Shown: positions 21,527 through 55,974 of the stretch, one piece after another | How positions within the stretch are numbered: the first letter of the stretch is position 1 | How the letters are laid out: each line of letters opens with the position of its first letter | DNA from: a bacterium | GTDB taxonomy: Bacteria; Planctomycetota; Planctomycetia; Isosphaerales; Isosphaeraceae | Reading direction: 5' to 3' | Length of the DNA stretch: 64,000 nt | Assembly (NCBI GenBank): GCA_016125085.1 | Contig: WGMM01000043.1 | Coordinates: 1-64,000, forward strand | Program-made: the position numbers and the translations under genes | The notes under the pieces: generated by a model | Seen by the model: the letters and a program-made list of their open reading frames with translations, nothing else | Told to the model about the DNA's origin: nothing | Databases searched by the model: none

Positions 21527-24500
21527 TCAGAATTCGTACGCGCCCAGATCGACGGCAAGGCCCCGGATTCGCGGCCGGCCCGTGCCACGCTGATCGGTCG
21601 TGATCGAGAACGGCACGAAAGAATCGTCGCCAGCGTCGATCGCCGCGCTGCCGGCCAGGAGGGCGTATGTCCAGGTCGGCCCTCCGTTGTCCTGGAGCGT
21701 GCCCAGCAGCGGATCCGCGACGATCGTGCCGGTCAGCCCCGTGCCGCTACCGTCGCGAACCAGATTTTTCGATCCTGAAAAAATCCCTCGAAGGTCGCCG
21801 CCGGAAAGGCTGTTAGCGACAATCGAGTTTCTCAGATTCACCGTGCCAGGTGAACCGATGTAAATCCCGCCGCCTTCGTTCGCTGAATTGAAGGCGATCG
21901 TATTGTTGAGGATCGTCGCCGTACCGATGTTGTAGATCGCTCCGCCGACCCACACAGCCCGGTTTTCGCCATACGTCGAATTCGTGGAAGTGAGCGTGCC
22001 CCGGTTGGCGATCGCACCGCCACTCTGGGCGGAGTTACCGACAAAAGTCGAAGCAAGGATCGTGATATTGCCTGCTTCGCTACTGATCCCCCCGCCCTCA
22101 TAAGCTGAGGAATTGTTCCTGAACGTGCTCGTGGAGACGGCAAAGTCACCGGCTCCCGTATTGAAAACCGCACCGCCGGAGTAAGACGTGGAAGAGTTGT
22201 TCTGGAATGTCGAGCCGGTGACGGTCGCTTTGGCTCTATTGAAAATTCCACCGCCGGTCAGACCCGTATTGCCGCTGAACGTGATATCCTCAGCCGTCAA
22301 TTGACCCGGGCCTGAGTTGAAGATTCCGCCCCCTTCAATTGCCCGGTTGCTTGTGATTTGACTGGAACGGATCGTCAGATTGCCTTCGTTGAAAAGTGCG
22401 CCGCCTGCCCAGGCCGTCACGACATTGCCTGAAAGGGTCGAGCCGGTGATGGTCATGGTTCCCCGATTGTCGAGCCCGCCCGCGACATTCGAAGCCCGGT
22501 TGCCGGAGATGGTTCCGCCGGTGATGGTCGTCGTTCCGGCGTTGTAGATCGCCCCGCCGGTATTTTGGGCATAGTTGCCCGAGACGACCCCGCCTGAAAT
22601 GTTGAGGGTAGCGTTCGCCTCGTTCGATCCGCCGCCGCCGCTCCATAACGAGGCTTGATTGTCGCGAACGGTCGTGCCTGTGAGGGAAAGCACGCCGAAA
22701 TTGGCGAACCCGCCACCGCCAGGCGCGGAGTTGCCGGAGATCAAGCCGCCGGTCACGCTGAGCGTGGCACTCGCACCGTTGAAGATTCCGCCGCCAGTCC
22801 AGGCTGAAGTCGGCAGGACGTTGTTCGTGACGTTCGTATCGACGAGCGTCGCCGAACCTTCGTTGATGATTCCGGCTCCGTATCCCGTGGCCTGGTTGTC
22901 GACGATCGTGACCTGCGTCAGGGTGACTGTCCCGAAGTTGTAGACACCGCCACCACATGGACCAGTCGCGCCTGTCATCTGCGTATTGCGGACATTGGCT
23001 TTGCCACCCGTATAGTTCAGCAAGGCACCGCCACCGCCGATCGCGTACCCAAGGCTGAACTGGCTGTCGGAGAGTTCGAGCGTGCCTTCATTGAAGACCC
23101 CGGCACCGGCCCAGCCGTTCGCCCTGTTGCCCGTGAACGACGCGCCATTGACGAAGGTCGTCCCGGAAGCCGCGATACCTCCCCCGATCGGCGCGGCATT
23201 TTCGACGAAACTGGTGGCTTGAACGCTGAGCGTCGAACCCCAGTCGCTCCGGATGGCACCGCCGCCCCAACCCCAGGCGGTGTTGTTCGAAAAATTGCTG
23301 CTCAGGACAGACAGAGTTCCGGCACTATAGATCGCTCCGCCGGAGTGCGCGGAATTGCCGCTGAAGGCCGTGCCGCTGACGGTTATTCTGCCGTTCGCCA
23401 GGTTTTCGAGTGCTCCGCCGATCCAGCCCGTGGCCTGGTTGTTCTGAAAGGTCGATCGGGCGAGCGTGAGTTCGGCCCGATTGCCGATCGCTCCGCCTTC
23501 GTTCGCCTTATTGCCGACGAACTGGCTGTCCGTGATCGTCGCGACGCTGCGATTGTCGAGAACGCCGCCGAAATATTGGGCGCTGTTGGACCGGAACAGA
23601 ACGTTCGTGACCGCGAGCGTGCTCTCGTTGGAGATCGCACCGCCGGAACTGGAGGCATTACCTTCGAAGGTGCTTCCCTGGATCGACAGATTTCCCGCTT
23701 GCCAGTTCATCACGGCACCACCGTCGGGTGCGCTATTGCCCGTGAAAGTCACACGGTTGACGGTCAGGGTGCCTGCGTTGAAGATGGCTCCGCCGGCCCA
23801 GTCGGAGGCGTGGTTGCCGATGAAAGTCGAGTCGGAGATCGTCGTAGGACCGGCGACCGAAATGGCACCGCCGTGGATTTGCGACTTGTTGTTTTCGAAT
23901 ACGGAGCCGCGAACCTCCAGATTCGCTCCGGAATCGCTATTGATCGCACCGCCGATCGAAATGACGGACGAATTACCGATGAAGCGCGAGCCAGTGACGG
24001 TCGCCTTGCCTCGGTTCGCGATGGCACCGCCTGCGTAAACGGTGTCGTTATTCGTGAACAGGGTGCCATCGACTTCGATTTCGCCCACGTTCCTGATTGC
24101 ACCGCCGTGCAAACTTGCGTGATTCTCAGAGAACGATCCGCCGGTGATCCTGGCCATGCCGTAATTCAGGATCGCGCCGCCGAGAACCGCGGAATTGCCC
24201 GCAAAGACAGACACGTCGATCGTCGAGACTGCTGAGTCCTCCAGGAGCACGCCACCGCCCCTATTCAGGGAAACGTTGTTCGTAAACGTGCTCGCGACGA
24301 TATTCACGATGCCCCTGCCGTAAATTCCTCCACCGTATTGTTTGGCCTGATTCGACGTGATGGTGCAGGTGTCGATGACGAGCGTGCCGTCGCTCAGAAT
24401 CGCACCCCCGGCCGAAGCCACCACGCTGGCGGACTCATCCGCTGAGCCACCCTTCAGCGTCAGCCGGTCGAAGCGGGAATTCGCCCCGGCGTCGATCCGG

Positions 24501-27500
24501 AACAGTCGGAACGCCGGCAGGTTCGCCGTCGTGTCGCGGGCGATCGTCACGCCCGACGACCCGCCGGAAACGTTCACCTGCGACGTGATCACCACTTCGC
24601 CGGCGGTCAGCCACACGCCCGTCAGGCCTGCGGCGAACGTCACCGTGTGCGGGCCTGTCAGCGAATTGGCGTAAGTCACGGCTTCGCGAAGGGATGTCCA
24701 GCCGTCGGTCGGATTGACCAGGTCATCGGCCGTCGTCACGACAAGGCTCGGGGCTTCGACGAACTCGAACGAGCCAAGATCGACCGTTCCGCCCATGATC
24801 CGGGCGAATCCAGCCCCACGCTGGTCATACGCCAACGAGTTGCCCTGAGAATCGACGGCCAGGGCGTTCGAACCGGCATTGACCGCCGGGCTGTTCACGG
24901 GCAGGGCGTATGTCCAGGTCGGCCCTCCGTTGTCCTGAAGCGTGCCCAGCAGCGGATCCGCGACGATCGTACCGGTCAGCCCCGTGCCGCTGCCGTCGCG
25001 AACCAGATTTTTCGATCCTGAAAAAATCCCTCGAAGGTCGCCGCCGGACAGGCTGTTCGCGACGATCGAGTTTCTCAGGTTCACCGTGCCGGGCGATTCG
25101 TTGAAGATCCCCCCGCCATTGCTGGCAGAGTTGAAGGCGATCGTGTTCTGGAGGATCGTCGCCCTGCCGTTGTTATAAATCGCACCGCCAAGGTTCCCGG
25201 CCCGGTTTTCTCCATATGTCGAATTCGTGGAATTGAAAGTGCCCGTATTGAGGATCGCACCGCCGCTGTTCGATGCCGAATTGGCGATGAAGGAACTGGC
25301 TTCGACCGTCAGCACGCCAGCGGTCGTGTTGAAGACGGCTCCGCCATCGTACGCCGTGCGGTTGTCGCGCACAGTGCTCGACCGAATCGTCAGATTACCT
25401 TCGTTGAACAGAGCGCCGCCTGCCCAGCCCGTAACGACGTTGCCGGTCAGTGTCGAGCCGGACACGGTCATCGACCCCGCGTTGTAGACCGCGCCGCCGA
25501 CATCCCGGCCCGTGTTCCGGCTCAGGTCGCTGCCGGTCACGGTCGCCGTACCGAAGTTCGCGATCGCCCCGCCACCGCTGTTCGGCGCGGAGTTGTTCGT
25601 GAGCGTGCTGCCGGTGACCGTCAAAGTGCCGCCGTTGAGAATCCCGCCGCCGACCCAGCCAGTCGTCCGGTTGCCGTCGAGCGTGCTGTTGGTCAGCGTG
25701 AAATTCCCGGCATTCTGAACGCCAGCAGCATACGAGCCGAGGTTGTTCGCCAGCCGAATGCCGGTGGCGACGACAATCGTCTGGCTACCCAGGTACATGC
25801 CTCCGCCGTCCTGAACGGATGAATTGCTCGAAATTAAAGTGCCGGTGAACGTTGCGTTACCCGTATGGACAAAGATACCGCCGCCGTAAGTCGCCTGATT
25901 TCCGAAAAATGAGCCGCCGGTCACCGTCAGAATTCCACTGTTGATGAGCATGCCCCCGCCGGTGCCGCTGGCCGTGTTGTTCGCAACTGACCCACCGATG
26001 AGCGTGAGCATTCCGCTGCTGTTCGCTTCGCTGAATATGCCGCCTCCGCTGCCGCTGGCCGTGTTGCTCACGATCGTGGTGTCGATGATCGTCGTCTTGC
26101 CACCTGATAAGTTCGACAAACCGCCACCGGTATTTGCCCGATTCTCGCGGATCGTACTCGACTCGATCGTCAGGTTTCCTTCGTTGAATAAAGCGCCGCC
26201 GGCCCAGCCCGTGACCACGTTACCGGTCAGTGTCGTTCCGGTGACTTTCATTGTGCCGGTGCTGTAAATCGCACCGCCGACATCTCTGGCAATGTTTTGT
26301 CTCAGGTCGCAGTCGGTCACCTCCGCCGTGCCGGAGTTCGCGATCGCTCCGCCACCTCCGTTCATCGCGGTGTTGTTCGCCAAGCTGCTCCCGCTCAATT
26401 TCAGCGTGCCGGAATTGGCGATCCCGCCGCCCACCCAACTCGTCGCCCTGTTACCCTGCAACGTACTGTCGGACAGCGTGAGCAACCCGTCATTCTGCAC
26501 ACCGCCGGAAAACAATCCCTGGTTGTCGATCAGCCGAACTCCTGTGACATCGGACGACGCCTGGATTCCCACATACAGACCACCCCCGTTCTGGCTTGCT
26601 AAGTTTCCCGAAATCAAGGCACCCGAAATCGACGCTTTACCCGTGTAAACGAAAATTCCGGCGCCGTAGCTGGCCTGATTGACGGAGCAAGTCCCGCCGA
26701 TGAGCGTCAGCATTCCGCTACCGCTTGTGGTGCTGAAGATGCCCCCGCCGCTGACGATCGCCGTGTTGCTTACGATCGTGGTGTCGATGACCATGGCCTT
26801 GCCGCCCGCGAAGTTCATCAAGCCGCCGCCGGTATTGCCCCTGTTTTCACGGATTGTACTCGACTCGATCGTCAGGTCGCCTTCGTTGAAAAGTGCGCCG
26901 CCGGACCAGCCTGCAGCCATGTTGCCGATCAGCGATACCTCGGCGATCGTCATCGTTCCATGGTTGAAAATCGCGCCTCCGACAGATTTGGCCGAGTTCC
27001 CGCGCAGCTCGCTGTCGGTTACGCTCGCAGTGCCGAAGTTCGCGATCGCACCGCCGGATCCGGTCGTCGTGACATTGTTCAGAAAGTTCGTGGCCGTCAA
27101 TTGCACGGTGGCGATGTTCCAAAGCGCTCCGCCGTCCGCGGCTTTGTTGCCGATGAAGGACGAATCACGGAAGGTCGAAAACAGTCCGGCGTTCGTCGCA
27201 TGCACGGCGCCGCCTGTCTGAGCGGCTGAATTTTCGGAAAATGTCAGACCGGTACCTGTAATCTTGCCTTCGCTGTAAATCGCTCCGCCGTTGGCCGTCG
27301 TCGAATTATTCTCGAACACGAGATTCGAAAGGATCAGCATGGAATTGCCGTTGGCGATCGCGCCGCCGCCTTTGCCCGCTGCGGAATTGCCAGTGAACCG
27401 TGTGCCGTCGATCGTCGAAATGCCGAAGTTCGTCAACCCGCCGCCCTGGCCCAGCGAGACGTTGTCCCGAATCTGACCGCCGCGAATGTCGTATGTTCCA

Positions 27501-29455
27501 GACCCGCCATTACGTAGACCGCCACCGCCGAACCACCCCTGAGCCGTGTTTGCGATGACTTCTGTGTCGATGATCGTCGTTTTGCCGTAATTGGAAATGC
27601 CGCCACCCTCGACGGCCTTGTTCCCGGTGATGAGACTGCCTGTGATCGTCGTGATCGCAGCACTCCAGACGAAGACGCCGCCGCCCATGTACTCGGCCAC
27701 GTTGTCCGATATCGAGCTGTCGACGATATTCAGACTGCCCCTGCTCAAAATTCCGCCGCCGTGCTGTTTTGCCTGATTCGACGTGATCGTGCTCGTGTCG
27801 ATGACGAGCGTGCCGTCGCTCAGGATCGCACCGCCTGCCGAAGCCAACACACTGGCCGTCTCATCCGCCGAACCGCCCGTCAACGTCAGCCGGTCGAAGC
27901 GGGACACCGCGCCGGCATCGACCCGAAACAGGCGGAATGCGGGCAGGTTCGCCGTCGTGTCGCGAGCGATCGTCACGCCTGACGAACCGCCGGAGATGTT
28001 CACCTGCGCGGAAATTACGATTTCGCCGGTCGTCAGCCAGACACCCGTCAGACCCGCGATGAACGTCACCGTGTGCGGCCCGGTCAGTGAATTGGCGTAA
28101 GTCACGGCTTCGCGAAGGGATGTCCAGCCGTCGGTCGGGTCGACTACGTCCAGGGCCGTCGTGACGATCAGGCTCGGCGTTTCGCCGAATTCGACGGCTC
28201 CGATGTCGACCGTTCCCCCCAGAATCCGGGCGAAACCCGCTCCACGCTGGTCGTACGTCAGCGGATTACCCTGAGCATCGACAGCAAGGGCATTCGAACC
28301 GGCGTTGATCGCCGGACTGCCGAAAAGAAGAGACTGCGTTTTCGTGGGGCCGCCGTTGTCGGCCAGAGGGCCCAGCTTCGGATCGGCCACGATGGTGGCC
28401 GTCAGCCCCGTGCCGCTGCCATCTTCGATCAGGTTGTTCGAACCTGAAAACCTGCCGTTCAGGTCAGCGCCGGAGAGACTGTCGGCCACGATCGTGCCGA
28501 TGAGCGTCGCCTGGGACCGATTGTCGATCCCGCCGCCGGTCGAGGCCGCATTTCCGGCGATCGTCGAAAATGCAACGGACAGGTCGCCCTGATTACGAAT
28601 GGCTCCGCCCAATTGAATCGCGGAATTCGCGCTGAAGGTCGTCTGGATCGCCGTGACGGTGCCCAGGTTGCCGATTGCACCTCCGAACCGGGCGGAATTC
28701 GAATCGAGCGTGCTCGAATCGAGCGATACCTCGCCCTGGTTGCGCACATAGACCCCCCCGCCCCAGTTAGCCGAGTTGCCCGTGAATGTGCCGAATGCGA
28801 TTTTCGACCGCCCTGCTTCGAAAATGGCACCGCCCTGATTGCCCGCGAGGTTGGCGGAAAAGACGCTGGTATCGATGGAAAGCGAACCGTAATCGGCGAT
28901 GGCACCGCCGGAATTTCCGGCCTGGTTCGCTTCGAAGACGGATGCGATGACATTCAGTTGGCCGCTCTGGTTGTAAACGGCACCGCCGTCGACTCGCGAC
29001 ACGTTGTTCCGAAGAGTGCTCGAAACCAGTGTGAGCGTGCCTTGATTTCGAATCGCTCCGCCCTGATTTTCGAACCCGTTGACGAGCGTCAGCCGGTTCA
29101 GGGTCACCGCCGCGCCCGGCGAGATATCGAATAGTCGAAACTGCGGCGTTTTCGCACCGGAACTTCTTGAGATCTCGACGTCGGCCGAACCACCGATCGT
29201 AATCTCATTCGTCACCTGAAGCTGGCCGGAGGTGAGGATCACACGATGCACATCCGCCGCGAACGTGATTTCATCCGCCACGGCGGTCGCATTCGCCTGG
29301 GCGATCGCCTGTCGAAGAGTTCCAGGGCCGCTATCCGCCTCACTCGTCACCAGAAATGTCGCCAGCGGCAATCTCTGCTCCAGCGTCTCGCAGAGAAGCC
29401 TGAACGCTGTACGACGAACCTTTTTGGCCGAAGGGGAAGAGCGAATTACTGGCAT
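21527..29455 (-). CDS. Giant right-handed beta-helix surface protein (2642 aa)
   Basis: The N-terminus has a basic start and the motif LCETLEQRLPLA, matching the LExRxL element found at the start of large secreted planctomycete proteins. After it comes TLRQAIAQANA, then hundreds of short strand repeats of the type GGAIxNxGTLTVxxSTFxxN, which predict a right-handed parallel beta-helix. Three module ends carry the choice-of-anchor-Q-like pattern (DNGGPTxTxxL, SPAxNAGSNALAVD, YDQRGAGFAR, VDLGAxEF) at about 352-425, 1490-1565 and 2570-2642. Two internal modules restart with DGWTSLREAVTYANSLTG near 440 and 1580. It is probably secreted and involved in adhesion or surface structure. An AGGAA site precedes the ATG. 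The DNA repeats inside are nearly identical over a few hundred bases, so assembly here should be checked. Confidence 0.85.
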   Translation of the reverse strand: MPVIRSSPSAKKVRRTAFRLLCETLEQRLPLATFLVTSEADSGPGTLRQAIAQANATAVADEITFAADVHRVILTSGQLQVTNEITIGGSADVEISRSSGAKTPQFRLFDISPGAAVTLNRLTLVNGFENQGGAIRNQGTLTLVSSTLRNNVSRVDGGAVYNQSGQLNVIASVFEANQAGNSGGAIADYGSLSIDTSVFSANLAGNQGGAIFEAGRSKIAFGTFTGNSANWGGGVYVRNQGEVSLDSSTLDSNSARFGGAIGNLGTVTAIQTTFSANSAIQLGGAIRNQGDLSVAFSTIAGNAASTGGGIDNRSQATLIGTIVADSLSGADLNGRFSGSNNLIEDGSGTGLTATIVADPKLGPLADNGGPTKTQSLLFGSPAINAGSNALAVDAQGNPLTYDQRGAGFARILGGTVDIGAVEFGETPSLIVTTALDVVDPTDGWTSLREAVTYANSLTGPHTVTFIAGLTGVWLTTGEIVISAQVNISGGSSGVTIARDTTANLPAFRLFRVDAGAVSRFDRLTLTGGSADETASVLASAGGAILSDGTLVIDTSTITSNQAKQHGGGILSRGSLNIVDSSISDNVAEYMGGGVFVWSAAITTITGSLITGNKAVEGGGISNYGKTTIIDTEVIANTAQGWFGGGGLRNGGSGTYDIRGGQIRDNVSLGQGGGLTNFGISTIDGTRFTGNSAAGKGGGAIANGNSMLILSNLVFENNSTTANGGAIYSEGKITGTGLTFSENSAAQTGGAVHATNAGLFSTFRDSSFIGNKAADGGALWNIATVQLTATNFLNNVTTTGSGGAIANFGTASVTDSELRGNSAKSVGGAIFNHGTMTIAEVSLIGNMAAGWSGGALFNEGDLTIESSTIRENRGNTGGGLMNFAGGKAMVIDTTIVSNTAIVSGGGIFSTTSGSGMLTLIGGTCSVNQASYGAGIFVYTGKASISGALISGNLASQNGGGLYVGIQASSDVTGVRLIDNQGLFSGGVQNDGLLTLSDSTLQGNRATSWVGGGIANSGTLKLSGSSLANNTAMNGGGGAIANSGTAEVTDCDLRQNIARDVGGAIYSTGTMKVTGTTLTGNVVTGWAGGALFNEGNLTIESSTIRENRANTGGGLSNLSGGKTTIIDTTIVSNTASGSGGGIFSEANSSGMLTLIGGSVANNTASGTGGGMLINSGILTVTGGSFFGNQATYGGGIFVHTGNATFTGTLISSNSSVQDGGGMYLGSQTIVVATGIRLANNLGSYAAGVQNAGNFTLTNSTLDGNRTTGWVGGGILNGGTLTVTGSTLTNNSAPNSGGGAIANFGTATVTGSDLSRNTGRDVGGAVYNAGSMTVSGSTLTGNVVTGWAGGALFNEGNLTIRSSTVRDNRTAYDGGAVFNTTAGVLTVEASSFIANSASNSGGAILNTGTFNSTNSTYGENRAGNLGGAIYNNGRATILQNTIAFNSASNGGGIFNESPGTVNLRNSIVANSLSGGDLRGIFSGSKNLVRDGSGTGLTGTIVADPLLGTLQDNGGPTWTYALPVNSPAVNAGSNALAVDSQGNSLAYDQRGAGFARIMGGTVDLGSFEFVEAPSLVVTTADDLVNPTDGWTSLREAVTYANSLTGPHTVTFAAGLTGVWLTAGEVVITSQVNVSGGSSGVTIARDTTANLPAFRLFRIDAGANSRFDRLTLKGGSADESASVVASAGGAILSDGTLVIDTCTITSNQAKQYGGGIYGRGIVNIVASTFTNNVSLNRGGGVLLEDSAVSTIDVSVFAGNSAVLGGAILNYGMARITGGSFSENHASLHGGAIRNVGEIEVDGTLFTNNDTVYAGGAIANRGKATVTGSRFIGNSSVISIGGAINSDSGANLEVRGSVFENNKSQIHGGAISVAGPTTISDSTFIGNHASDWAGGAIFNAGTLTVNRVTFTGNSAPDGGAVMNWQAGNLSIQGSTFEGNASSSGGAISNESTLAVTNVLFRSNSAQYFGGVLDNRSVATITDSQFVGNKANEGGAIGNRAELTLARSTFQNNQATGWIGGALENLANGRITVSGTAFSGNSAHSGGAIYSAGTLSVLSSNFSNNTAWGWGGGAIRSDWGSTLSVQATSFVENAAPIGGGIAASGTTFVNGASFTGNRANGWAGAGVFNEGTLELSDSQFSLGYAIGGGGALLNYTGGKANVRNTQMTGATGPCGGGVYNFGTVTLTQVTIVDNQATGYGAGIINEGSATLVDTNVTNNVLPTSAWTGGGIFNGASATLSVTGGLISGNSAPGGGGFANFGVLSLTGTTVRDNQASLWSGGGGSNEANATLNISGGVVSGNYAQNTGGAIYNAGTTTITGGTISGNRASNVAGGLDNRGTMTITGSTLSGNVVTAWAGGALFNEGNLTIRSSQITSNRAIEGGGIFNSGPGQLTAEDITFSGNTGLTGGGIFNRAKATVTGSTFQNNSSTSYSGGAVFNTGAGDFAVSTSTFRNNSSAYEGGGISSEAGNITILASTFVGNSAQSGGAIANRGTLTSTNSTYGENRAVWVGGAIYNIGTATILNNTIAFNSANEGGGIYIGSPGTVNLRNSIVANSLSGGDLRGIFSGSKNLVRDGSGTGLTGTIVADPLLGTLQDNGGPTWTYALLAGSAAIDAGDDSFVPFSITTDQRGTGRPRIRGLAVDLGAYEF
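21660..21855. repeat. Long near-identical repeat, copy 1 (within beta-helix gene)
   Basis: This stretch matches 24902-25098 with only a handful of differences in about 190 bp (about 96 percent by eye). It encodes the end of a module (IVADPLLGTLQDNGGPTWTYA and what precedes it). It is evidence for recent duplication or gene conversion between modules. Confidence 0.85.
24351..24724. repeat. Module-start repeat, copy 1 (within beta-helix gene)
   Basis: This region encodes the module start (SLREAVTYANSLTG through TSNQAKQ) and is closely similar to 27771-28146, at protein level nearly identical (DTTANLPAFRLFR, GGAILSDGTLVIDT). Confidence 0.8.
24902..25098. repeat. Long near-identical repeat, copy 2 (within beta-helix gene)
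   Basis: This is the partner of 21660-21855. It sits at the end of the middle module. Confidence 0.85.
27771..28146. repeat. Module-start repeat, copy 2 (within beta-helix gene)
   Basis: This is the partner of 24351-24724, at the start of the middle module. Confidence 0.8.
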
Positions 29456-45658: not shown

Positions 45659-46966
<1,308 letters not shown>

Positions 46967-47022
46967 CTTTTGACGAGAAGCGACAAAGTCGTTTCAATTC
47001 GAACACAAGCTCTCGAAATACG

Positions 47023-47052
47023 AATCTCGTGGACCAAGGTCCGCGAGATTTT
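47023..47052 (+). terminator. Intrinsic terminator after UDP-glucose dehydrogenase
   Basis: AATCTCG-T-GGACC (47023-47035) pairs with GGTCC-G-CGAGATT (47038-47050), with one T-G wobble, and then runs into T-rich sequence. It lies 57 bp after the stop codon. Confidence 0.85.
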
Positions 47053-47139
47053 CGCTTATTTCTTTGCGTTACCGTAAGCATATGCTACTGCCATGCCCGG
47101 ATTGGGCTCGTGTGTCTTCCCCCACTGGCGGAATCCAGG

Positions 47140-47703
47140 TCAACTTGCATTTCGCCACAATGCCGCCGCCAGCGATCCGAATAGCACTGCCTCGCCCACG
47201 CGCTGGGCCGCTCCTCGAATTCTTGCTGCATTCGGCACCGTCAGAATCACCGCAACGATTCCGACCACGGCCGCAGCGGTCGTAAACATCGGCACAGTTT
47301 CGCCCATCCTGGCCAGGGCCAGCGCGCCGCCGACATATTGAATCCCCCCGGCCAGATTGTGCATCCCCTGCGAAAACGATCCCTGCATCGGCGAGCCCAC
47401 ATCGCACGGAAATGCCACCGATCCCAGGTAACCCGCCGCCAGTGCCGCGGCAAGTGCGGCCATCTCCGGCGAACGGTCAAAAGAGAGAATCGCCACGGCC
47501 GCCAGACCGATTCCCACCGGCAGAAAAAGCCCGAACGCCACGATTCGCGCATCGCTGGCCCCCCGCTCGCCAAGCTCGCTGATCGTGTGCCGCACGTGGC
47601 TGTAACCCGGCTTACGGCGGCCGAACGCGACGATCCCGCAAGTCAACCAGGTTGCGATGACGAAAACGAGCGTGACTGCGAACACAAAGCCACTTCCCTT
47701 CAC
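47140..47703 (-). CDS. DUF998 membrane protein (187 aa)
   Basis: This protein has about six transmembrane helices. The DUF998 features are the conserved YSHVRHTISELGERG just after the first helix and the loop MQGSFSQGMHNLAGGIQYVGG. The function of the family is unknown. It is a stand-alone gene that converges with UDP-glucose dehydrogenase. Confidence 0.85.
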   Translation of the reverse strand: MKGSGFVFAVTLVFVIATWLTCGIVAFGRRKPGYSHVRHTISELGERGASDARIVAFGLFLPVGIGLAAVAILSFDRSPEMAALAAALAAGYLGSVAFPCDVGSPMQGSFSQGMHNLAGGIQYVGGALALARMGETVPMFTTAAAVVGIVAVILTVPNAARIRGAAQRVGEAVLFGSLAAALWRNAS

Positions 47704-47808
47704 TTCAGCCTGATTCGAAATCGACAGGGCACCCGATCGATCAATATCGTATCATTCCGGAAGTGATCGATCGCGATGCCCTCGTTCGCATTCAAGCTTA
47801 TCGTCATT

Positions 47809-50800
47809 TCAATTTCCCGCCTGCCTCGCTTTCAGAAACGCTTCGGCTTCCTTCAGCTCTTCGTCAGAGACGACGACGTCCAAGTCCGTCGTTTCGCCTG
47901 ATTTCGCTTCGACCGACACGGTTTTCAACACATACTTCGAACCCTTCTCCGTTTTACCCATCACGCAAAGTTCGACCGGCATCGGCGGCAGTCGATCGAG
48001 AAGAAAAGTACCGTCTTCCTGCGGATACCAAGATTCGCTCGGCACGAAACTGAGCTTCCAGCTCTCCCGATGGCCCCAGGAAAAGCGGAAATTGCCGTCG
48101 GGGTTGCCGTTGCGCATGACCCGCAACCGTACCTTGCCCCATGGCCCCAGACGTACGCCGCCACCGGGCAGCTTCGCGAAATCGGCCGCTTCCATCTGGG
48201 TAAAGCCGACCTGGTTCGAAAACACCAGCTTGCCGGCTGCATTTCGTGCCTTGAAACGAAACCGCCCCTGATCGTCCGTAAACGGCGGATTCTGAGTGTC
48301 GAATTTCCAGTCGAACGTGGTTTCGCCTACTTTCGCCGTTTCGCCGGGTACACGATTGCGGTAAAATGCAACTCGGGCAGGGTTGCCGTCCGGGTCGAGC
48401 ACTTGGCCTTCGATCGTCAGCGTCTTCTCGGGTGGCAGCTTTTTCAACCGAACGTCGTGACGAACCGGCGAATCACCCTTCTTGATGCGTTCAGCCGATA
48501 CATACGGCTCATATCCCGGTGCGACTACCACGAGATACGGGTCGATTTCGCTGAGTTGTCTCGGCCCCTTGGGTGTCATGATAGAATCGAGTTCGAACAC
48601 GCTACCAGGCCTTTCGTCTGCGACGATCTCCAGCCGGTCATCTTTCGCGCCGGACAGCAGCCATGCCGACATCGGCTCGACGGGCACGCCCGTGTCGGCA
48701 TCGATGACCTGACCATAGACTCGAAAGCCGGGCCGCATCGCGCCATACGTTTTACGGTCGACAATCTTGCCCGAATCGTCTTTCAGCCGTTCTTCCCAGC
48801 CGAACATGGTCTGGTTGACTTCGAACTTCAAAGTACCGCCGGCGGGAACGTTCAAGTCGTGGTCCGAATACTGGGTCTGGTCATTGGCCGAAGCCGGATT
48901 TGGAAATGCGAACCGATAAGGCCCCGGCATGGCGCGTTCGATCACGAACATACCAGGGTGATTTGTGCGAATACTGGTCGGCATCGGATTACCGAACCGG
49001 TTCTTGCCGATGTCGAAATTCGGCTGAGAAACAAGTCTCGCCCCCGCCATCGGCCGTTCGTCCAGCAGCAGCGTGCCTTCGATCCGGCCCCAGGGTTCCA
49101 GTTTCAATTCCGTTTCGCCTTCTGCCATTTCGACGAGCTTCGTCGACCTCAGCACGCCTGAGTCGTGTGTCACGCACCAGCCGAATTTCTCGGCCCAGAC
49201 GGGCAGACGGAATCGGCCTTCGGCATCCGTGCGGATCGGCTCCCGCTCCGAATTCTTCCATTGCCCGCGCACGATTGCCCTGTGCTCGATCGCCTCAATG
49301 CGGCCATTCCGCGTGAGCCGGGGCAGATATCGATCATTCCGGTCATCGGTCGTCGTGAAGAAACCCACGTCCGCCCCGGCGGCGGGTGATCCGTCAGGCT
49401 TGAGGACTTTGCCGGTGATGAATTTGCCCGAAGGAGCCGGAAATTCGGGTTTGGGCGGAGCGGCAGGTTTCGAATCCTCAGCGGTTATCGCTGGTTTCGA
49501 ATCGGTCGCACGCGGTTTCGAAGCCGCTTTCGGATCCCGGGGTTTCTCAGGTTCGGCCGGTTTCGCTCCGATGGTCAACTTCGTCGTCTGGCCGGCCACC
49601 GTTTCGAATGAGACAGGGCCCACGGGCGGATCGAGCTGGGAATAACTCGTCGAACTGTGGTCGATCTGTTTGTGAATCATCAGGCTGAGCGAATGCTTGC
49701 CGGGCAGCACATTTTCGATAGCGAAGGTGCCGTCGGGCCGGATTCCGGCAGCCGGCGGATTCATGAAAGGCGACCAGGCGAGACTCCGGTAATTCACCTG
49801 GCCCCGAACGTCGCCCTCGGCAGGTAATTTCATTTCGACCTTGCCTTCGACTCGGGCCCAGGGACCGAGACGGATCACGCCCTGAGTTTGGGCCAGCTCA
49901 TCGCCCGTAACGACCGCACAACCGGTGGAATCAAGCACGGTCAATTGATCGATCGCTTCGCGGCTCGAAATGCGGAAACGGCCCTCTTCGTCGGCCTGAA
50001 CCGGAGAGGGTCCATCGATATCGCCCGAACCCGGTTGCGTAAGCACCTGCCAGCGCACGCTGGACTGACCGGCTTTCGAAACCGGCGTTTTCAGCGAGAA
50101 TGCAATATCGGCCCTTTTGGCGGCAGTGCCATCGGCCCGCAAAATCTGGCCCCTCGTCTCCTTCGGCTCTCCCAACATAGCAGGTTTCAGGGCGACATCC
50201 ATGCGAACCGGGCCGTCGCCACGGGGAATCGGCCGGGGCGATACGAACGGTTCGTATCCGGGTGCGAAGACAATCAGATAGGGGTCGATTTTTTGCGTTT
50301 CCTGCACGCTGCGATTCGAAACCGCGTGATAGGCCGTGAACGTCCCATCGTGCGGACCGACCCACTGAACCCAGATCGTCGGATCATCGCCTGGCTGGCC
50401 CGTGATGAACAGGGCTCGCGTCTTCGTCAAGGGCTTGCCCGTGGCGGCGTCAGTCGCCCGGCCGTACACCAGAAATTCTTTTCCGAATTCGCCGGAACCT
50501 GACTTTGCGACTTCCTTGCCAGCTGCGTCAGAGACGAGCTGATGATGGCCGAATTCGGTGACCGAGGTATCGACATTCAGCGAAGCACCCGCCGGCACTT
50601 CGAAAGGTTCAGCGAGAAATTGCCATAAGCTTTTCATATCCTTGTGCGGAAATGCAAGCCGCATCATGCCAGGGATGACTCGCTCGATTTCGAACCGGCC
50701 CCGGTCGTCGGTCAGCACATTGTTCCTGATCGGAATCAGCATTTCGTTGTTGATGCCCGGCCCGGAATACCACACTCGCACGTTGGCCTGGGGCTTGCCA

Positions 50801-53800
50801 TCACGCAGGAAGACGCCCTGGACGCGACCATAAGGCCCGAGCCGGATCGTCATTGGTTCGGCGGCTGTCATATGCCGGGCTTCTGGCGAGCGGAACACGC
50901 CCGACTCGTGCGTGACGATCCAGCCGATTTTGACGGCATCAGCCGGAATACGGAATTTGCCTTCAGTGTCGGTGCGGACGAGTTCGATTTTCGCCGGTGG
51001 GGATTCGAGGGAGCCGCGAGTCATGCTCGTCAGCCGTCCGTTCTCGAATTGCGGCTCGTAACGGGGCCAGCTGCCGTCCTTCGGCGTGTAAAACGCAACA
51101 GCAGCACCTGCCGCCGGTGTGCCGTCGGGCTTGAGCACGCGGCCTTCGATCGATTTCGAATCGGCCGGATCGATCCGTTTCAGCGCGAAATTCAGCGACA
51201 GGTGCGGATCGTCGACTTTCATCAGGTCCGTAGTGATCGGCTCATAACCGGGTGCTTCGATCCGCAGGCGAAATTCATGGACGGAGCCATCCCGTGAATG
51301 AAACGGCGATGCGGGGAAACGAAACCGGCCCTCGACATGGCGGCCATGAATGGAAAGGCTTCGCTCTCCATCCGCGAGACGTTCCCGATAAATGAGTTGG
51401 TAGTCTGCAACGGGCTGACCTGTAGCGGCGTCGGTCACGCGGCCTTCGACGACGCTCTGATTTTTGAGAACGACATCGAGATTCGAAGTTCGAACTGTGT
51501 CGATTTTGGCCTCGTAACCCAAATAGCCGGTTTTCGAGAAAATCAGCGAGACAAAATCGGCCGGAAGGTCGGCGATTTCGAATCGGCCGTCGGCGTCGGT
51601 TCGCCGAATCGCATCCGGGGCCCTCAGCCAGCGTGGCAGTGTCGTGTCGTCGACTCGCACATCGGCCAAGGGCTTGCCTTCGGCGTCAGTCACTCGGCCG
51701 GTGACCGGTCGACCGGGTATGAGTTGAAATGTCGCCACGCGGTCCTGATCCTGCACGTCGATCGACTTGATGCACCAGCCCTGACCCGGCTTGTGCACGG
51801 CGATTTTCACCGGAGCCTGAACCGTGCCCAGGTTGCCGATGCGGAATTCGCCCTTCGCATCGGTCAATTGCGAGGCTTCTCCGAACTCGACGGGCCATTC
51901 GTCGCTGCGCACCTCGGCCCCGGCAACAGGCTTGCCGTCAAGGTCAATTACCCTGCCGGTAAGCGTCTGCCCCCGTTTCAGCTGAATTTGATGCGTGGCG
52001 GATTTGAGAGTTTCGAAAGGCGGTTCGACACGGCCGCGCGGGTCGGCCTCCGTTCCAGCCCAGTCGATGGCGAATTCGGGATGCAACGCCGCGACGTCAA
52101 TCTGCGTGGCCTTCGGATCGACCTGAGACGTCTTCCAGCGACCGTCGGCACCGGTGCGGACGAGTTCGCAGCGATACGATCTTGTGCCGTTTTCATTCGG
52201 TTTCGCCTGAAACGTCACCAGCACCCGGGCATCTTTCACAGGCTCTCCCTTGTCGTGCACCAGGCCGCCAATGGGCATCCCGGGAGTGAGCTTCGCGACG
52301 AAGGGAGAAACTGGCGGAAAGTCAGGATCCTCGATCGAAGATCGTCGAAGCCGTAACGGCACATGGATATCGCTCGAGATGCGAATCGAAATGAAATCGT
52401 CTTTTCCAGGTTCGAACGGAATCAGTGCCTTGCCGTTCGCGTCTGTGGTGATCTTGCCGTCCTTGCGGTCGGTCTGAAAATGGACCACGGCGCCGGCGAC
52501 AGGGTGCCCTGTTTCTGCATCGATCGCCTGAAATTCGAAGGGGCGCTTCGCATTCTGATCATTCGTCGAGGCTTCTGCAATCGATGCGGACGAAACTTCG
52601 GCGGCGACGAAACGGGGCGAAATGGGCAGCAAAACGAAAGCCACCAGGAACGGTGAAGCACACCAGAGCCAGCGAGGGATTATGGGTTTCGAATTCTCTT
52701 GCTCCGTCATGTTTTCGATCCTCCTGCGAATGGCCGGGTAACGGGGATTAATGCCGAGTACGAGCGGGCTGTCAGGCGCGTGAACAGGCTGCCGATCGGC
52801 CCAGACGAGAATTTTCAAAAACGTTTCCGCACATTTCCGGGGCGGCAGGCCGGTGACATTTCCGGCAAAGTCGTCGCATGCCAGTTCACGAAAGTTCGCC
52901 GTGGCGCGCCGGGCCAGCCACAAGGCAGGATGGAAGAAACCGGCCAGGCCGACGGCCCTTTCGAAAGCGACAGACCAGAGATCGCGACGTTTCAGGTGGG
53001 CAAGTTCGTGGGCAATGGCCCAGCGCATTTCAGCTTCGTCGAAGTCGGTTTCGAAACCCGCGGGAATTAAAAGCTTCGGGCGAATCAGGCCGAAGACGGC
53101 AGGCGAGTGGACGGTGGTCGTCGTGACGACACGCGGGCAACGACGCAGGCCGATTTCTGACGCAACATCCATCACGATTGCCGATAGCCCGGGAGATGAT
53201 CGCAGGCCGGTTCGTTTCAGGCGGAAATCCATGACCAAGCTGGCAATGAGGAATCGAACCGCAAGAATCGAGCAGATTCCGAACCAGGCGCCAAAGAGAA
53301 TTACGGAAGGGCTGGGCCATTCGAACCCGGGACGGGAAATCGACTCGACCTGAAGCGCTTCGGAAGTCTCTGCAGGTTGGGAACCAGCGGTTTCGAAATG
53401 TTCGGATCCAGCAGGCAGAGTTGCGAATTCCGTAACGAGTTCGGAATCGACCGGCGGAATGGACGGTTCCGGAAGGGCGATCGGAGCGGAAATGATATGC
53501 TCGTCAGGTGGCGCGTCGGTTCGGGTGATTTCCGTGACCGGTGGAGAGATGAACGGCAGCGGAATTTCCATCGGCATTTCGAAGGCGAGCAGGCAGCACA
53601 TGAAGATGGCCGCGAAGCGGGCCGGTACGAGAAGAAATAGCCCGTGGGCGAATGCGTGGCTGACATGTCGGCGCATCACAAGCCAGAACAAGCTGATGAC
53701 GGCCAGAACGACGAGGGATTGCAACGTGGCCCTGGCAAGAATTTCGAACCAGAAGCCGACGGCCGTTTCGAAGGCCGTCTTCGAAATCGGTATCGTAGCG

Positions 53801-53814
53801 GGCATGGCGAACAT
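47809..53814 (-). CDS. BlaR1/MecR1-like membrane metalloprotease with a giant modular ectodomain (2001 aa)
   Basis: The first 400 residues are an M56 peptidase. Transmembrane helices lie at about 23-47, 54-78, 170-195 and 382-400. The zinc motif HELAH is at 269-273, and FRELACDD (E310) supplies the third ligand. In BlaR1 this domain cleaves the BlaI repressor after the outer sensor binds a ligand. Here the sensor is not penicillin-binding. Residues about 410-2000 contain some 15 beta-sandwich modules of the carboxypeptidase-regulatory-like type, with the motif GRVxDxxGxPxxGAxV followed by DxxGxFxI. A block of about 550 residues (about 886-1430) is repeated at about 1463-1995. The gene starts 17 bp after the BlaI-like gene, with GGAGGG upstream. 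The ligand is unknown. Confidence 0.9.
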   Translation of the reverse strand: MFAMPATIPISKTAFETAVGFWFEILARATLQSLVVLAVISLFWLVMRRHVSHAFAHGLFLLVPARFAAIFMCCLLAFEMPMEIPLPFISPPVTEITRTDAPPDEHIISAPIALPEPSIPPVDSELVTEFATLPAGSEHFETAGSQPAETSEALQVESISRPGFEWPSPSVILFGAWFGICSILAVRFLIASLVMDFRLKRTGLRSSPGLSAIVMDVASEIGLRRCPRVVTTTTVHSPAVFGLIRPKLLIPAGFETDFDEAEMRWAIAHELAHLKRRDLWSVAFERAVGLAGFFHPALWLARRATANFRELACDDFAGNVTGLPPRKCAETFLKILVWADRQPVHAPDSPLVLGINPRYPAIRRRIENMTEQENSKPIIPRWLWCASPFLVAFVLLPISPRFVAAEVSSASIAEASTNDQNAKRPFEFQAIDAETGHPVAGAVVHFQTDRKDGKITTDANGKALIPFEPGKDDFISIRISSDIHVPLRLRRSSIEDPDFPPVSPFVAKLTPGMPIGGLVHDKGEPVKDARVLVTFQAKPNENGTRSYRCELVRTGADGRWKTSQVDPKATQIDVAALHPEFAIDWAGTEADPRGRVEPPFETLKSATHQIQLKRGQTLTGRVIDLDGKPVAGAEVRSDEWPVEFGEASQLTDAKGEFRIGNLGTVQAPVKIAVHKPGQGWCIKSIDVQDQDRVATFQLIPGRPVTGRVTDAEGKPLADVRVDDTTLPRWLRAPDAIRRTDADGRFEIADLPADFVSLIFSKTGYLGYEAKIDTVRTSNLDVVLKNQSVVEGRVTDAATGQPVADYQLIYRERLADGERSLSIHGRHVEGRFRFPASPFHSRDGSVHEFRLRIEAPGYEPITTDLMKVDDPHLSLNFALKRIDPADSKSIEGRVLKPDGTPAAGAAVAFYTPKDGSWPRYEPQFENGRLTSMTRGSLESPPAKIELVRTDTEGKFRIPADAVKIGWIVTHESGVFRSPEARHMTAAEPMTIRLGPYGRVQGVFLRDGKPQANVRVWYSGPGINNEMLIPIRNNVLTDDRGRFEIERVIPGMMRLAFPHKDMKSLWQFLAEPFEVPAGASLNVDTSVTEFGHHQLVSDAAGKEVAKSGSGEFGKEFLVYGRATDAATGKPLTKTRALFITGQPGDDPTIWVQWVGPHDGTFTAYHAVSNRSVQETQKIDPYLIVFAPGYEPFVSPRPIPRGDGPVRMDVALKPAMLGEPKETRGQILRADGTAAKRADIAFSLKTPVSKAGQSSVRWQVLTQPGSGDIDGPSPVQADEEGRFRISSREAIDQLTVLDSTGCAVVTGDELAQTQGVIRLGPWARVEGKVEMKLPAEGDVRGQVNYRSLAWSPFMNPPAAGIRPDGTFAIENVLPGKHSLSLMIHKQIDHSSTSYSQLDPPVGPVSFETVAGQTTKLTIGAKPAEPEKPRDPKAASKPRATDSKPAITAEDSKPAAPPKPEFPAPSGKFITGKVLKPDGSPAAGADVGFFTTTDDRNDRYLPRLTRNGRIEAIEHRAIVRGQWKNSEREPIRTDAEGRFRLPVWAEKFGWCVTHDSGVLRSTKLVEMAEGETELKLEPWGRIEGTLLLDERPMAGARLVSQPNFDIGKNRFGNPMPTSIRTNHPGMFVIERAMPGPYRFAFPNPASANDQTQYSDHDLNVPAGGTLKFEVNQTMFGWEERLKDDSGKIVDRKTYGAMRPGFRVYGQVIDADTGVPVEPMSAWLLSGAKDDRLEIVADERPGSVFELDSIMTPKGPRQLSEIDPYLVVVAPGYEPYVSAERIKKGDSPVRHDVRLKKLPPEKTLTIEGQVLDPDGNPARVAFYRNRVPGETAKVGETTFDWKFDTQNPPFTDDQGRFRFKARNAAGKLVFSNQVGFTQMEAADFAKLPGGGVRLGPWGKVRLRVMRNGNPDGNFRFSWGHRESWKLSFVPSESWYPQEDGTFLLDRLPPMPVELCVMGKTEKGSKYVLKTVSVEAKSGETTDLDVVVSDEELKEAEAFLKARQAGN

Positions 53815-53831
53815 GGCGGAGCCCTCCGGGT

Positions 53832-54266
53832 TCAGGCGTTTTTCGGGTCTTTTTCGTCTTCCGGGCGGTCGGCCGTACGGCGGTCGATGAGGTCGCGCAG
53901 GCGTGCCAGTTCGTCGTCGGTGAGCCGGGTGCGTTCGAGCATGTGGGAAATCACCAGGCCCGAGGTGCCTTCCAGCAGGTTTTCGATCAGGCTGTCGGCG
54001 GCGGCCAGCAGCGATTTCACGGCAGATCCGGCCGGTTCGTAGAGATAGGCATTGCCCACCTGCCGTACGCTCAGGTGGCCTTTGTCGACCAGGCGTTTGA
54101 GGATGGACTTGGTCGTCGTCGGGGCCCAGCCTTCAGTGCGGGCCGTTTCGGTGTAGACATCACGCGCGGCACAGCCGCGATACCGATGCCGCCAGACGAC
54201 CTTCATCACCTTCCACTCGGCAGGCGTAAGCAGAGTCTCATCACGCGAATTGCGGGAGTCGGTCAT
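53832..54266 (-). CDS. BlaI/MecI/CopY-family repressor (144 aa)
   Basis: The N-terminal 80 residues form the penicillinase-repressor winged helix (LLTPAEWKVMKVVW, then APTTTKSILKRLVDKGHLSVRQ). The C-terminal part (about 85-125) is the dimerisation helix region in which BlaR1-type proteases cut. Such repressors bind TACTACA-like dyads and block their own operon. The gene overlaps no other but is 17 bp before the M56 protease gene, so both are one operon. A promoter and operator lie just upstream (54301-54336). This family is common in planctomycetes and rarely linked there to beta-lactam resistance. Confidence 0.92.
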   Translation of the reverse strand: MTDSRNSRDETLLTPAEWKVMKVVWRHRYRGCAARDVYTETARTEGWAPTTTKSILKRLVDKGHLSVRQVGNAYLYEPAGSAVKSLLAAADSLIENLLEGTSGLVISHMLERTRLTDDELARLRDLIDRRTADRPEDEKDPKNA

Positions 54267-54300
54267 CAGTCAACCCTCAATGACGGTATCGAAATCTATT

Positions 54301-54336
54301 GACTACAAAAATAGTCGTTCGTTTTTACTTTGTCAA
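54301..54336 (-). promoter_or_regulatory. Promoter and BlaI-type operator of the repressor-protease operon
   Basis: On the minus strand TTGACA (plus 54331-54336) and TATTTT (plus 54308-54313) are separated by exactly 17 bp. The -10 box lies inside the dyad GACTACAAAAATAGTC (54301-54316). That dyad differs at two central bases from the BlaI/MecI operator pattern GACTACANNTGTAGTC. Binding of the repressor there would block the promoter. It is 35 bp upstream of the BlaI start. Confidence 0.8.
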
Positions 54337-54543
54337 CGTTCGCGGCGGAATTCGTCGCGAGGAATCCGATATTCGCACGATATCTATGGAATTGCAGGGA
54401 GTTATGTCTGGAGCAGATTCGGGCCGCAGTGGTTCGTCGGCGAATCGGCTTCGTCTTGGTCGGGCCTGGCCTGAGGCAAAAGTAGAAATCGCTGGCGACG
54501 TTCGATCAGGTGTTCGACGAATAGATCGGAAATTCTGCCCTGA

Positions 54544-55974
54544 TCAGCTTTTCGATTCGCTCTCCCGAGCTTTCGCTTTCGTGCTTTCCGGTTCGAGCAG
54601 GTTCTGGCCTTCTTCGGGAACGCGAGCGCGAAGGGTCTGTTCTTCGATGGAATCGGCGTCGCTGGAGAGTGATCCTTCGGACGGCGAGACGACAGGCTCA
54701 GGGGCAGGCACTGGTGATGGTTGGGCGAGAGGGAGGGAAGATTCGGCTGGTGTCGCGGGCCTCCCCGGTTCCGGGGCTTCGATTTCGCCCGCGAAGCGGA
54801 TTCCCTTGTCGCGAAAGGCGCTGCGTGTCAGACGGATCACGGAGGATCGGACTTTCGGCCAGCTGTGTTCGATACAGTCGACCCAGAAATACGATCGCAA
54901 ACGGATGCCGATTTCGTCGATGTCGTTGACGAGAACGAGAGGCTCCGGGTCTTCGAGCACAGCGGGGTGATCTCGCAGAACCCGCATGGCGACCTCCTGG
55001 GCATCGGAGATGCGCGTTCCGAAATCCAGGGCGAGCGTGAAGTCCATACGCTGAAGGGGGTTGCTGGTGAAATTCCGGATGACGTTCTTGAAGACGATGG
55101 CGTTGGGAATCTGCAGGTGGTTGCCTTCGGTGGTCATCAGGATGGTCGTGCGTGCGGTGAGGCCCTGTACGTAACCGGAGCGATCGGCGACGGCGATGTA
55201 ATCACCGATGCGGAAGGGCTTGTTGATGCTCAGATAAATGCTGGCGAGGAAATTTTCGGTGATTTCACGAAATGCGATACCGACGGCCAGACCCGCCACA
55301 CCCGTGCTGCCCAGAACGGTGACGGCAAGCCGCGACAGCCCGGAAACCTTGAGAACGAGGTAGATGCCGATGAAAAAGACCAGAAAACCGATTGAGCGCG
55401 AAGCGACGTCGCGAAGCAGTTCGCTGCTGATGGACTGCTCGAAGAATCGGGCACTGAGCTTGCGAGCGAGTCTTGCGGAAATCCATGCCGCTGGGATCAT
55501 GAAGATCGAAAACAGCAAAAACGGCAGCCCCAGGACAACCGACCGGCCCATCTCTCGCAACTGTTCGACGATTCCCGACAGGTCGAATATCGGCGGCTGG
55601 TCCACCTGGATGCGATTGACGACCGCCACGACATCCTGGGTGTTCATGGCAAGGTCGGAGGCCCACGACTTGTAGGCCTCAGTCCGGGTGAAACCCGTGA
55701 TGAATACGACGCCCTCTTCGACGGCCACCAGCGGGGCACGGAACCAGGTGGTGGCTTCGAGAATGTCCGTCAGCCGGCGTTCGATCTCGTCGTCTCGAAC
55801 CGTGGGCTTGACAGCGACTTTCTCGGCCGGTTTCGGTTCGGCTTCGCTGGGGACTTCGGCCGGTTTCGGATTTTCCGCGGGCGGAGTGGCCGAATCCTGG
55901 GCACCACAATACGCCGAACCTGCCTGGCTCAGCAGGCTGAAAAGACATGCGGTGACGAATACCGGATATTTCAT
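54544..55974 (-). CDS. MscS-family mechanosensitive channel with N-terminal BON-like domain (476 aa)
   Basis: A signal peptide (about 1-25) is followed by a Pro/Glu-rich linker and a BON-like domain (about 61-125, EGVVFITGFTRTEAYKSWASDLAMNTQDV). Then come three transmembrane helices, the last being the pore helix typical of MscS (VLGSTGVAGLAVGIAF). The beta domain follows (NKPFRIGDYIAVADRSGYVQ, and NHLQIPNAIVFKNVIRNF). The last 90 residues are Pro/Ser/Glu-rich and not conserved. MscS channels release solutes at membrane tension. The BON domain, thought to bind membranes or envelope components, is an added module seen in some bacteria. Confidence 0.9.
   Translation of the reverse strand: MKYPVFVTACLFSLLSQAGSAYCGAQDSATPPAENPKPAEVPSEAEPKPAEKVAVKPTVRDDEIERRLTDILEATTWFRAPLVAVEEGVVFITGFTRTEAYKSWASDLAMNTQDVVAVVNRIQVDQPPIFDLSGIVEQLREMGRSVVLGLPFLLFSIFMIPAAWISARLARKLSARFFEQSISSELLRDVASRSIGFLVFFIGIYLVLKVSGLSRLAVTVLGSTGVAGLAVGIAFREITENFLASIYLSINKPFRIGDYIAVADRSGYVQGLTARTTILMTTEGNHLQIPNAIVFKNVIRNFTSNPLQRMDFTLALDFGTRISDAQEVAMRVLRDHPAVLEDPEPLVLVNDIDEIGIRLRSYFWVDCIEHSWPKVRSSVIRLTRSAFRDKGIRFAGEIEAPEPGRPATPAESSLPLAQPSPVPAPEPVVSPSEGSLSSDADSIEEQTLRARVPEEGQNLLEPESTKAKARESESKS

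Follow-up and report, generated by a model that had tools for sequence, protein, structure and literature searches.

Gene Organization and Family Membership

BlaR1 and MecR1 are the textbook receptors that signal by cleavage of a repressor, a mode of signaling known almost solely for beta-lactams. A locus in the 64,000-nucleotide stretch of planctomycete DNA analyzed here (the window) raises the question of what such a receptor may perceive, and which genes it controls, when its extracytoplasmic part is a long chain of repeats. The locus consists of two genes on the minus strand, with blaI in first position and a gap of 17 nt, containing a GGAGG motif, between the two:

53832..54266, minus strand: blaI, BlaI/MecI-type repressor of 144 aa (open reading frame, PF03965, MecI/BlaI structures, alignment)
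47809..53814, minus strand: M56 (BlaR1-type) receptor-protease of 2001 aa (open reading frame, PF05569, BlaR1 structure 8exp, ortholog L056)

The original prediction had described these adjoining genes as a BlaI/BlaR1-type repressor-protease pair, and the profile searches agree. The Penicillinase_R profile (PF03965) matched BlaI residues 13–128 with 93 bits (cut-off 22.6), and comparison with solved MecI/BlaI structures aligned both the winged helix and the dimerization part (E = 2e-10). The HMM search proposed at the time for the 2001-aa protein returned a strong Peptidase_M56 match (PF05569; residues 27–315, 101 bits, curated cut-off 31) and CarboxypepD_reg with 164 bits, and the BlaR1 cryo-EM chain 8exp aligned to residues 155–371 (E = 2e-5). 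The NCBIfam BlaR1 equivalog NF000326 reached 54 bits against a cut-off of 400, which shows that the M56 protein falls outside BlaR1 proper.

No beta-lactamase or penicillin-binding protein (PBP) gene adjoins the operon. The next gene upstream of blaI (54544–55974, also minus strand) encodes an MscS-type channel that has a BON domain at its N-terminus; it was rejected as an operon member because the intervening 277 nt contain a promoter and the gene is absent upstream of the orthologous and paralogous operons. Downstream, a DUF998 gene (47140–47703) follows the M56 gene after 105 nt with no terminator-like site in between, and co-transcription is possible. It was discarded as an output gene and placed outside the conserved unit, since it is missing from the 189 nt past the M56 stop of the ortholog and other genes come after M56 in relatives. 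Elsewhere in the window, a 2642-aa open reading frame (21527–29455, minus strand) carries repeats of Chlamydia polymorphic membrane proteins (PF02415, 79 bits) and probably encodes a large surface protein.

Membrane and Protease Part

52588..53814, minus strand: N-terminal membrane and protease part, residues 1–409 (hydropathy, motifs, BlaR1 signature of PMC9834060)

The residues named in the original prediction are present, with HELAH at positions 269–273 and E310 opening the motif ELACD. HELAH and E310xxxD314 form a zinc signature spaced as in the gluzincin signature of Staphylococcus aureus BlaR1 (H201EXXH/E242XXXD; PMC9834060), and R365 corresponds in the alignment to Arg294 in the active site of BlaR1. 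Hydropathy revealed four hydrophobic stretches (residues 18–53, 53–90, 166–200, and 377–409). Basic residues follow the first and third, and the loop after the second is acidic, a charge pattern that fits the Nout/Cout topology of BlaR1; judged from this topology, the HEXXH/EXXXD site would face the cytosol. Directly past the fourth stretch (TM4) lies the sequence FVAA/E (405/406), which reads FIAA/T in the ortholog, and an A-x-A-type site is found here in same-clade relatives as well. BlaR1 sheds its sensor via a signal-peptidase site at the equivalent place (PMC9834060), of which FVAA/E is possibly the counterpart, weak as this evidence is because the stretch is rich in alanine.

Modular Ectodomain

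51154..52539, minus strand: ectodomain modules 1–5, residues 426–887 (module alignment, PF13620 in each)
49564..51153, minus strand: block A, modules 6–10, residues 888–1417 (34% identity to block B, AlphaFold, Foldseek)
49426..49563, minus strand: Pro-rich linker between the blocks, residues 1418–1463 (sequence, 57% identity to the ortholog)
47812..49425, minus strand: block B, modules 11–15 and C-terminal tail, residues 1464–2001 (duplicate of block A)

Leaving the linker aside, the ectodomain of approximately 1,600 residues is composed of 15 repeat units of about 85–121 aa each. Five modules are followed by a five-module block in duplicate, modules 6–10 and 11–15 sharing 34% identity over 516 aligned residues. 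The score of CarboxypepD_reg (PF13620) is the total of five significant stretches. The assignment of about 15 carboxypeptidase-regulatory-like modules in the original prediction thus held for the number of repeat units, but when these were tested singly similarity to PF13620 was detected in 9 of the 15 (modules 1–7, 11, and 14), of which modules 3 and 4 were the only ones above the Pfam cut-off by themselves. Profile comparison joined modules 9/14 and 7/12 to the family, and 8/13 and 10/15 weakly; the membership of six units rests on internal homology or periodicity.

A profile built from all modules matched the beta-domains of NOMO2 and of intradiol dioxygenase in the PDB. The AlphaFold model of modules 6–10 was moderate (pLDDT 67, pTM 0.44) and that of modules 3–5 poor (pLDDT 37). 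Foldseek searches with the former retrieved pilins and surface proteins of the tandem Ig/CnaB type; the global superposition was poor, as is expected when a jointed chain is modeled with moderate confidence. The repeats are Ig/transthyretin-like. Profile searches of the 2001-aa protein against Pfam and NCBIfam found no PBP, transpeptidase, or beta-lactamase family, and no penicillin-binding fold occurred among the structure and profile matches of the ectodomain. No family match to the C-terminal penicillin-binding sensor with S-x-x-K that marks BlaR1 and MecR1 was obtained, and a penicillin-binding ectodomain was rejected on this ground, as had been foreseen from the motifs.

A full-length ortholog with 69% identity is encoded on contig QWOQ01000012.1 of a Planctomycetota metagenome-assembled genome (MAG; L056), next to a BlaI that is 88% identical to that of the window. 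Identity peaks in modules 3 (87%) and 11 (89%), compared with 70% for the protease part and 29% for the TM2–TM3 loop. The existence of this ortholog and a dN/dS of about 0.15–0.29 throughout mark the reading frame as a functional gene. With a dN of 0.14–0.24 against 0.27 for the TM/protease part, the ectodomain is under purifying selection and, by this sequence measure, no less conserved than the protease, which suggests that it is constrained as a specific receptor, unlike a variable surface adhesin. A search of 392 genomes of the phylum for the second block (E ≤ 1e-25) recovered the own genome only, so that with the MAG two genomes are known to hold the double-block form.

Promoter, Predicted Operator, and Repressor

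54308..54336, minus strand: sigma70-type promoter TTGACA-17-TATTTT (single promoter-like site, ortholog with the same spacing)
54301..54316, minus strand: predicted BlaI operator GACTATTTTTGTAGTC, overlapping the -10 (conserved in L056, L038, and L039; genome scans)

The promoter is the sole promoter-like site on the minus strand in 7.8 kb (46900–54700), a count not above that of shuffled sequences. BlaI is predicted to bind the palindrome at 54301–54316 over the -10, which is partial in the window (5 of 8 pairs). In the ortholog the palindrome GACTACTCTAGTAGTC lies 15 nt from TTGAC, as in the window, between flanks that have largely diverged, and the same arrangement precedes a paralogous operon in the own genome (C58) and an operon of the same genus in genome G002.

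The extent of the regulon was assessed by sequence-pattern scans. In the own genome (6.09 Mb, 93.5% complete), GACTA-N6-TAGTC occurs at two sites, each upstream of a BlaI/M56 operon; since a reversed control pattern gave four sites, the specificity lies in position and not in count. A relaxed promoter-operator pattern, scanned in three genomes, found only the operons of the window, the ortholog, the paralogue, and G002, and across 199 genomes of the phylum the exact pattern was confined to the two BlaI/M56 operons of the own genome. Additional GACTA-N6-TAGTC sites in G002 (C35) and G003 (C6), where no BlaI/M56 gene was seen, were set aside; the latter is probably due to chance because it lies inside a 611-aa open reading frame. 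From these scans, which could have missed weaker operators, the targets of the repressor seem to be limited to two operons, the one that encodes its sensor and a sister operon.

The recognition helix of the window BlaI is WAPTTTKSILKRL. BlaI proteins with the helix WAP(T/S)T(T/C)K pair with GACTAT or GGCGAT...TAGTC sites, a BlaI of the own genome with the helix ARNTVQT pairs with a classical TACANNTGTA site, and those with the helix HDSTVRT have neither operator type; helix and operator covary across the compared sequences. The known cleavage site Asn101-Phe102 aligns with His108-Met109, the predicted cleavage position of the window BlaI, where Met109 stands in place of an almost invariant Phe.

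Related Loci and Apparent Ectodomain Exchange

M56 genes occur in 42 of 45 genomes of the same family, with up to 22 per genome. At 29 of 30 M56 loci read, a BlaI gene (in one case a fragment at a contig end) immediately preceded M56, which was present either singly or as two genes in tandem. The remaining locus, L051, has no BlaI neighbor, and its C-terminus resembles those of two redoxin-tailed relatives, M56 receptors with carboxypeptidase-regulatory-like modules and a terminal AhpC-TSA/thioredoxin-like domain (L042:3925–7995 and L043:4953–8981). Tandem M56 genes were found in L037 and L055; in the former (L037:5464–9725; own genome, C58), one BlaI gene precedes two M56 genes without recognized ectodomain families. 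Only two matches to the M56 domain, both weak, were obtained from a plasmid collection.

Carboxypeptidase-regulatory-like modules on M56 proteins beside BlaI are common in the family. The design seen in the window is therefore not a singleton, and the system represents a large version, with a duplicated block, of an architecture that is widespread and has been little described. Its open frame of 2107 codons is the longest among the matches listed, followed by one of 1896. BlaI/M56 pairs with WD40 beta-propellers (PF00400, 450–548 bits) are present at L052:4221–8195, L053:5035–9246, and L054:3580–7947, where the recognition helix type and the promoter-operator layout are those of the window. 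In the same genus (G002), L039:5470–9861 combines M56 with Poly_export, SLBB, and carboxypeptidase-regulatory-like domains next to a BlaI that is 76% identical to that of the window and has a recognition helix of the same type, and compared with the window receptor it represents, at the sequence level, an exchange of ectodomains within the genus. The varied ectodomains beside the same helix type make the protease/repressor pair look like a chassis with exchangeable sensors.

BlaI with M56 is known as a kind of system, and the literature search retrieved no paper on M56, BlaI, and planctomycetes, nor on peptidase M56 with carboxypeptidase-regulatory-like domains; no description of such a receptor in planctomycetes was found there. 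Beyond the original prediction, the present analysis adds the promoter and operator, the restriction of the operator signature to BlaI/M56 operons, the second copy of a block of five modules, and the common occurrence of such fusions in the family.

Proposed Mechanism and Alternative Explanations

We read the locus, with good confidence, as an antirepressor circuit of the BlaR1/BlaI type whose sensor responds to something other than beta-lactams; this confidence extends to the circuit and not to its ligand. BlaI, presumably as a dimer, would occupy the palindrome over its own -10 and repress the bicistronic blaI-M56 operon; this autorepression is suggested by the position and conservation of the operator and by the covariation of helix and operator. 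The BlaR1 topology, hydropathy, and charge pattern point to an M56 protein with four membrane helices, a cytosolic zinc protease, and the 1,600-residue Ig/transthyretin-like chain outside. By analogy with BlaR1, binding of a ligand to the ectodomain, or its straining or cutting, would lift the autoinhibition of the protease, which could then cleave BlaI near His108-Met109, de-repress the operon, and yield more receptor. The outcome would be a self-amplifying receptor for an extracytoplasmic ligand, possibly coupled in its output to the paralogue operon via the shared operator type. As sites of this type were found only at these two operons, the detectable transcriptional output would be the receptors themselves. 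Against this circuit stand the different ectodomain of the same-genus relative with the 76%-identical BlaI, the Met109 at the cleavage position, and the poor or moderate AlphaFold models.

The receptor probably senses something other than penicillins, because the Ig-like chain replaces the penicillin-binding sensor and the repressor seems limited to two operons. Perception of beta-lactams or peptidoglycan fragments as in BlaR1/MecR1, through an unrecognized binding module, is suggested by the shared protease and repressor families, but is very improbable considering the Ig/transthyretin-like repeats, the missing PBP, transpeptidase, and beta-lactamase families, and the operator signature, which occurs at no further locus of the own genome and therefore marks no beta-lactamase gene. 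Homology pointed to no particular ligand, and the cell-surface polymers, peptides, or mechanical state put forward in the original prediction would be no more than candidates. The likeliest stimulus is a polymer outside the cytoplasm or a component of the envelope, a weak inference and a tentative one at best; the SLBB/Poly_export domains of L039 are the only, weak hint towards a polysaccharide. A further possibility, which we regard as quite improbable, is that the ectodomain is not a sensor but the product: signal peptidase would cut behind TM4 (FVAA/E, 405/406) and release a long protein of the surface or matrix, with BlaI/M56 merely keeping its own supply constant. The sites found control BlaI/M56 operons only, the fold matches are pilins and surface proteins, and the A-x-A-type site recurs in the window, the ortholog, and same-clade relatives at the place of the known BlaR1 shedding (PMC9834060); the motif, however, sits in an Ala-rich stretch, the BlaR1 precedent concerns an ectodomain that is a sensor, and the 87–89% identity of modules 3 and 11 exceeds what would be expected of a filler adhesin.

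BlaI might also regulate more widely, through degenerate operators that escaped the scans and lie at genes for the envelope or for polysaccharides. Real targets may deviate from an operator that is palindromic in only 5 of 8 pairs, and relatives use a GGCGAT half-site; yet the relaxed promoter-operator patterns revealed nothing further in three genomes and single-operon BlaI regulons are documented (PMC8457756), so that we consider this unlikely. Somewhat doubtful, too, is the more far-reaching proposal that BlaI/M56 forms a plug-in sensory chassis of the Planctomycetota, whose shared protease and repressor receive unrelated repeat ectodomains in exchange for one another (tandem Ig-like modules, WD40 propellers, SLBB/Poly_export, redoxin-tailed chains), and that in the lineage of the window the giant receptor is the only transcriptional output of the circuit, which would make it a surface protein that reports on itself. 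If a large family indeed combines the same protease and repressor with other ectodomains, it would constitute a general class of transmembrane signaling, which the compact case described here, with one operator, two genes, and an ortholog of 69% identity, makes testable.

Comparison with Known Systems

With BlaR1/BlaI and MecR1/MecI of S. aureus and Bacillus licheniformis the antirepressor circuit proposed for the window shares the M56 gluzincin with HEXXH/EXXXD and four helices, the adjacent BlaI repressor, and the extracytoplasmic C-terminal sensor. It differs in that the 1,600-residue tandem-repeat ectodomain takes the place of the penicillin-binding sensor, in the Met for Phe at the BlaI cleavage position, and in the absence of an adjacent beta-lactamase or PBP gene, with NF000326 at 54 bits versus 400. 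In EMSA, BlaI_1845 of Clostridium thermocellum bound GACTAT, and its reported regulon is its own operon alone (PMC8457756); the half-site and the blaR1-type gene in the operon are as in the window, whereas two additional genes and four half-sites are present there, compared with the two genes and one palindrome found here. The M56-CarboxypepD_reg proteins beside BlaI (L038, L042, L043, L050, and others) agree in gene order and module kind but are shorter (about 900–1,900 residues), have no detectable second five-module block, and in many cases go with another recognition helix and operator. Conversely, the M56-WD40 proteins (L052, L053, and L054) share the recognition helix type and promoter-operator layout of the window but carry WD40 propellers instead of Ig-like modules.
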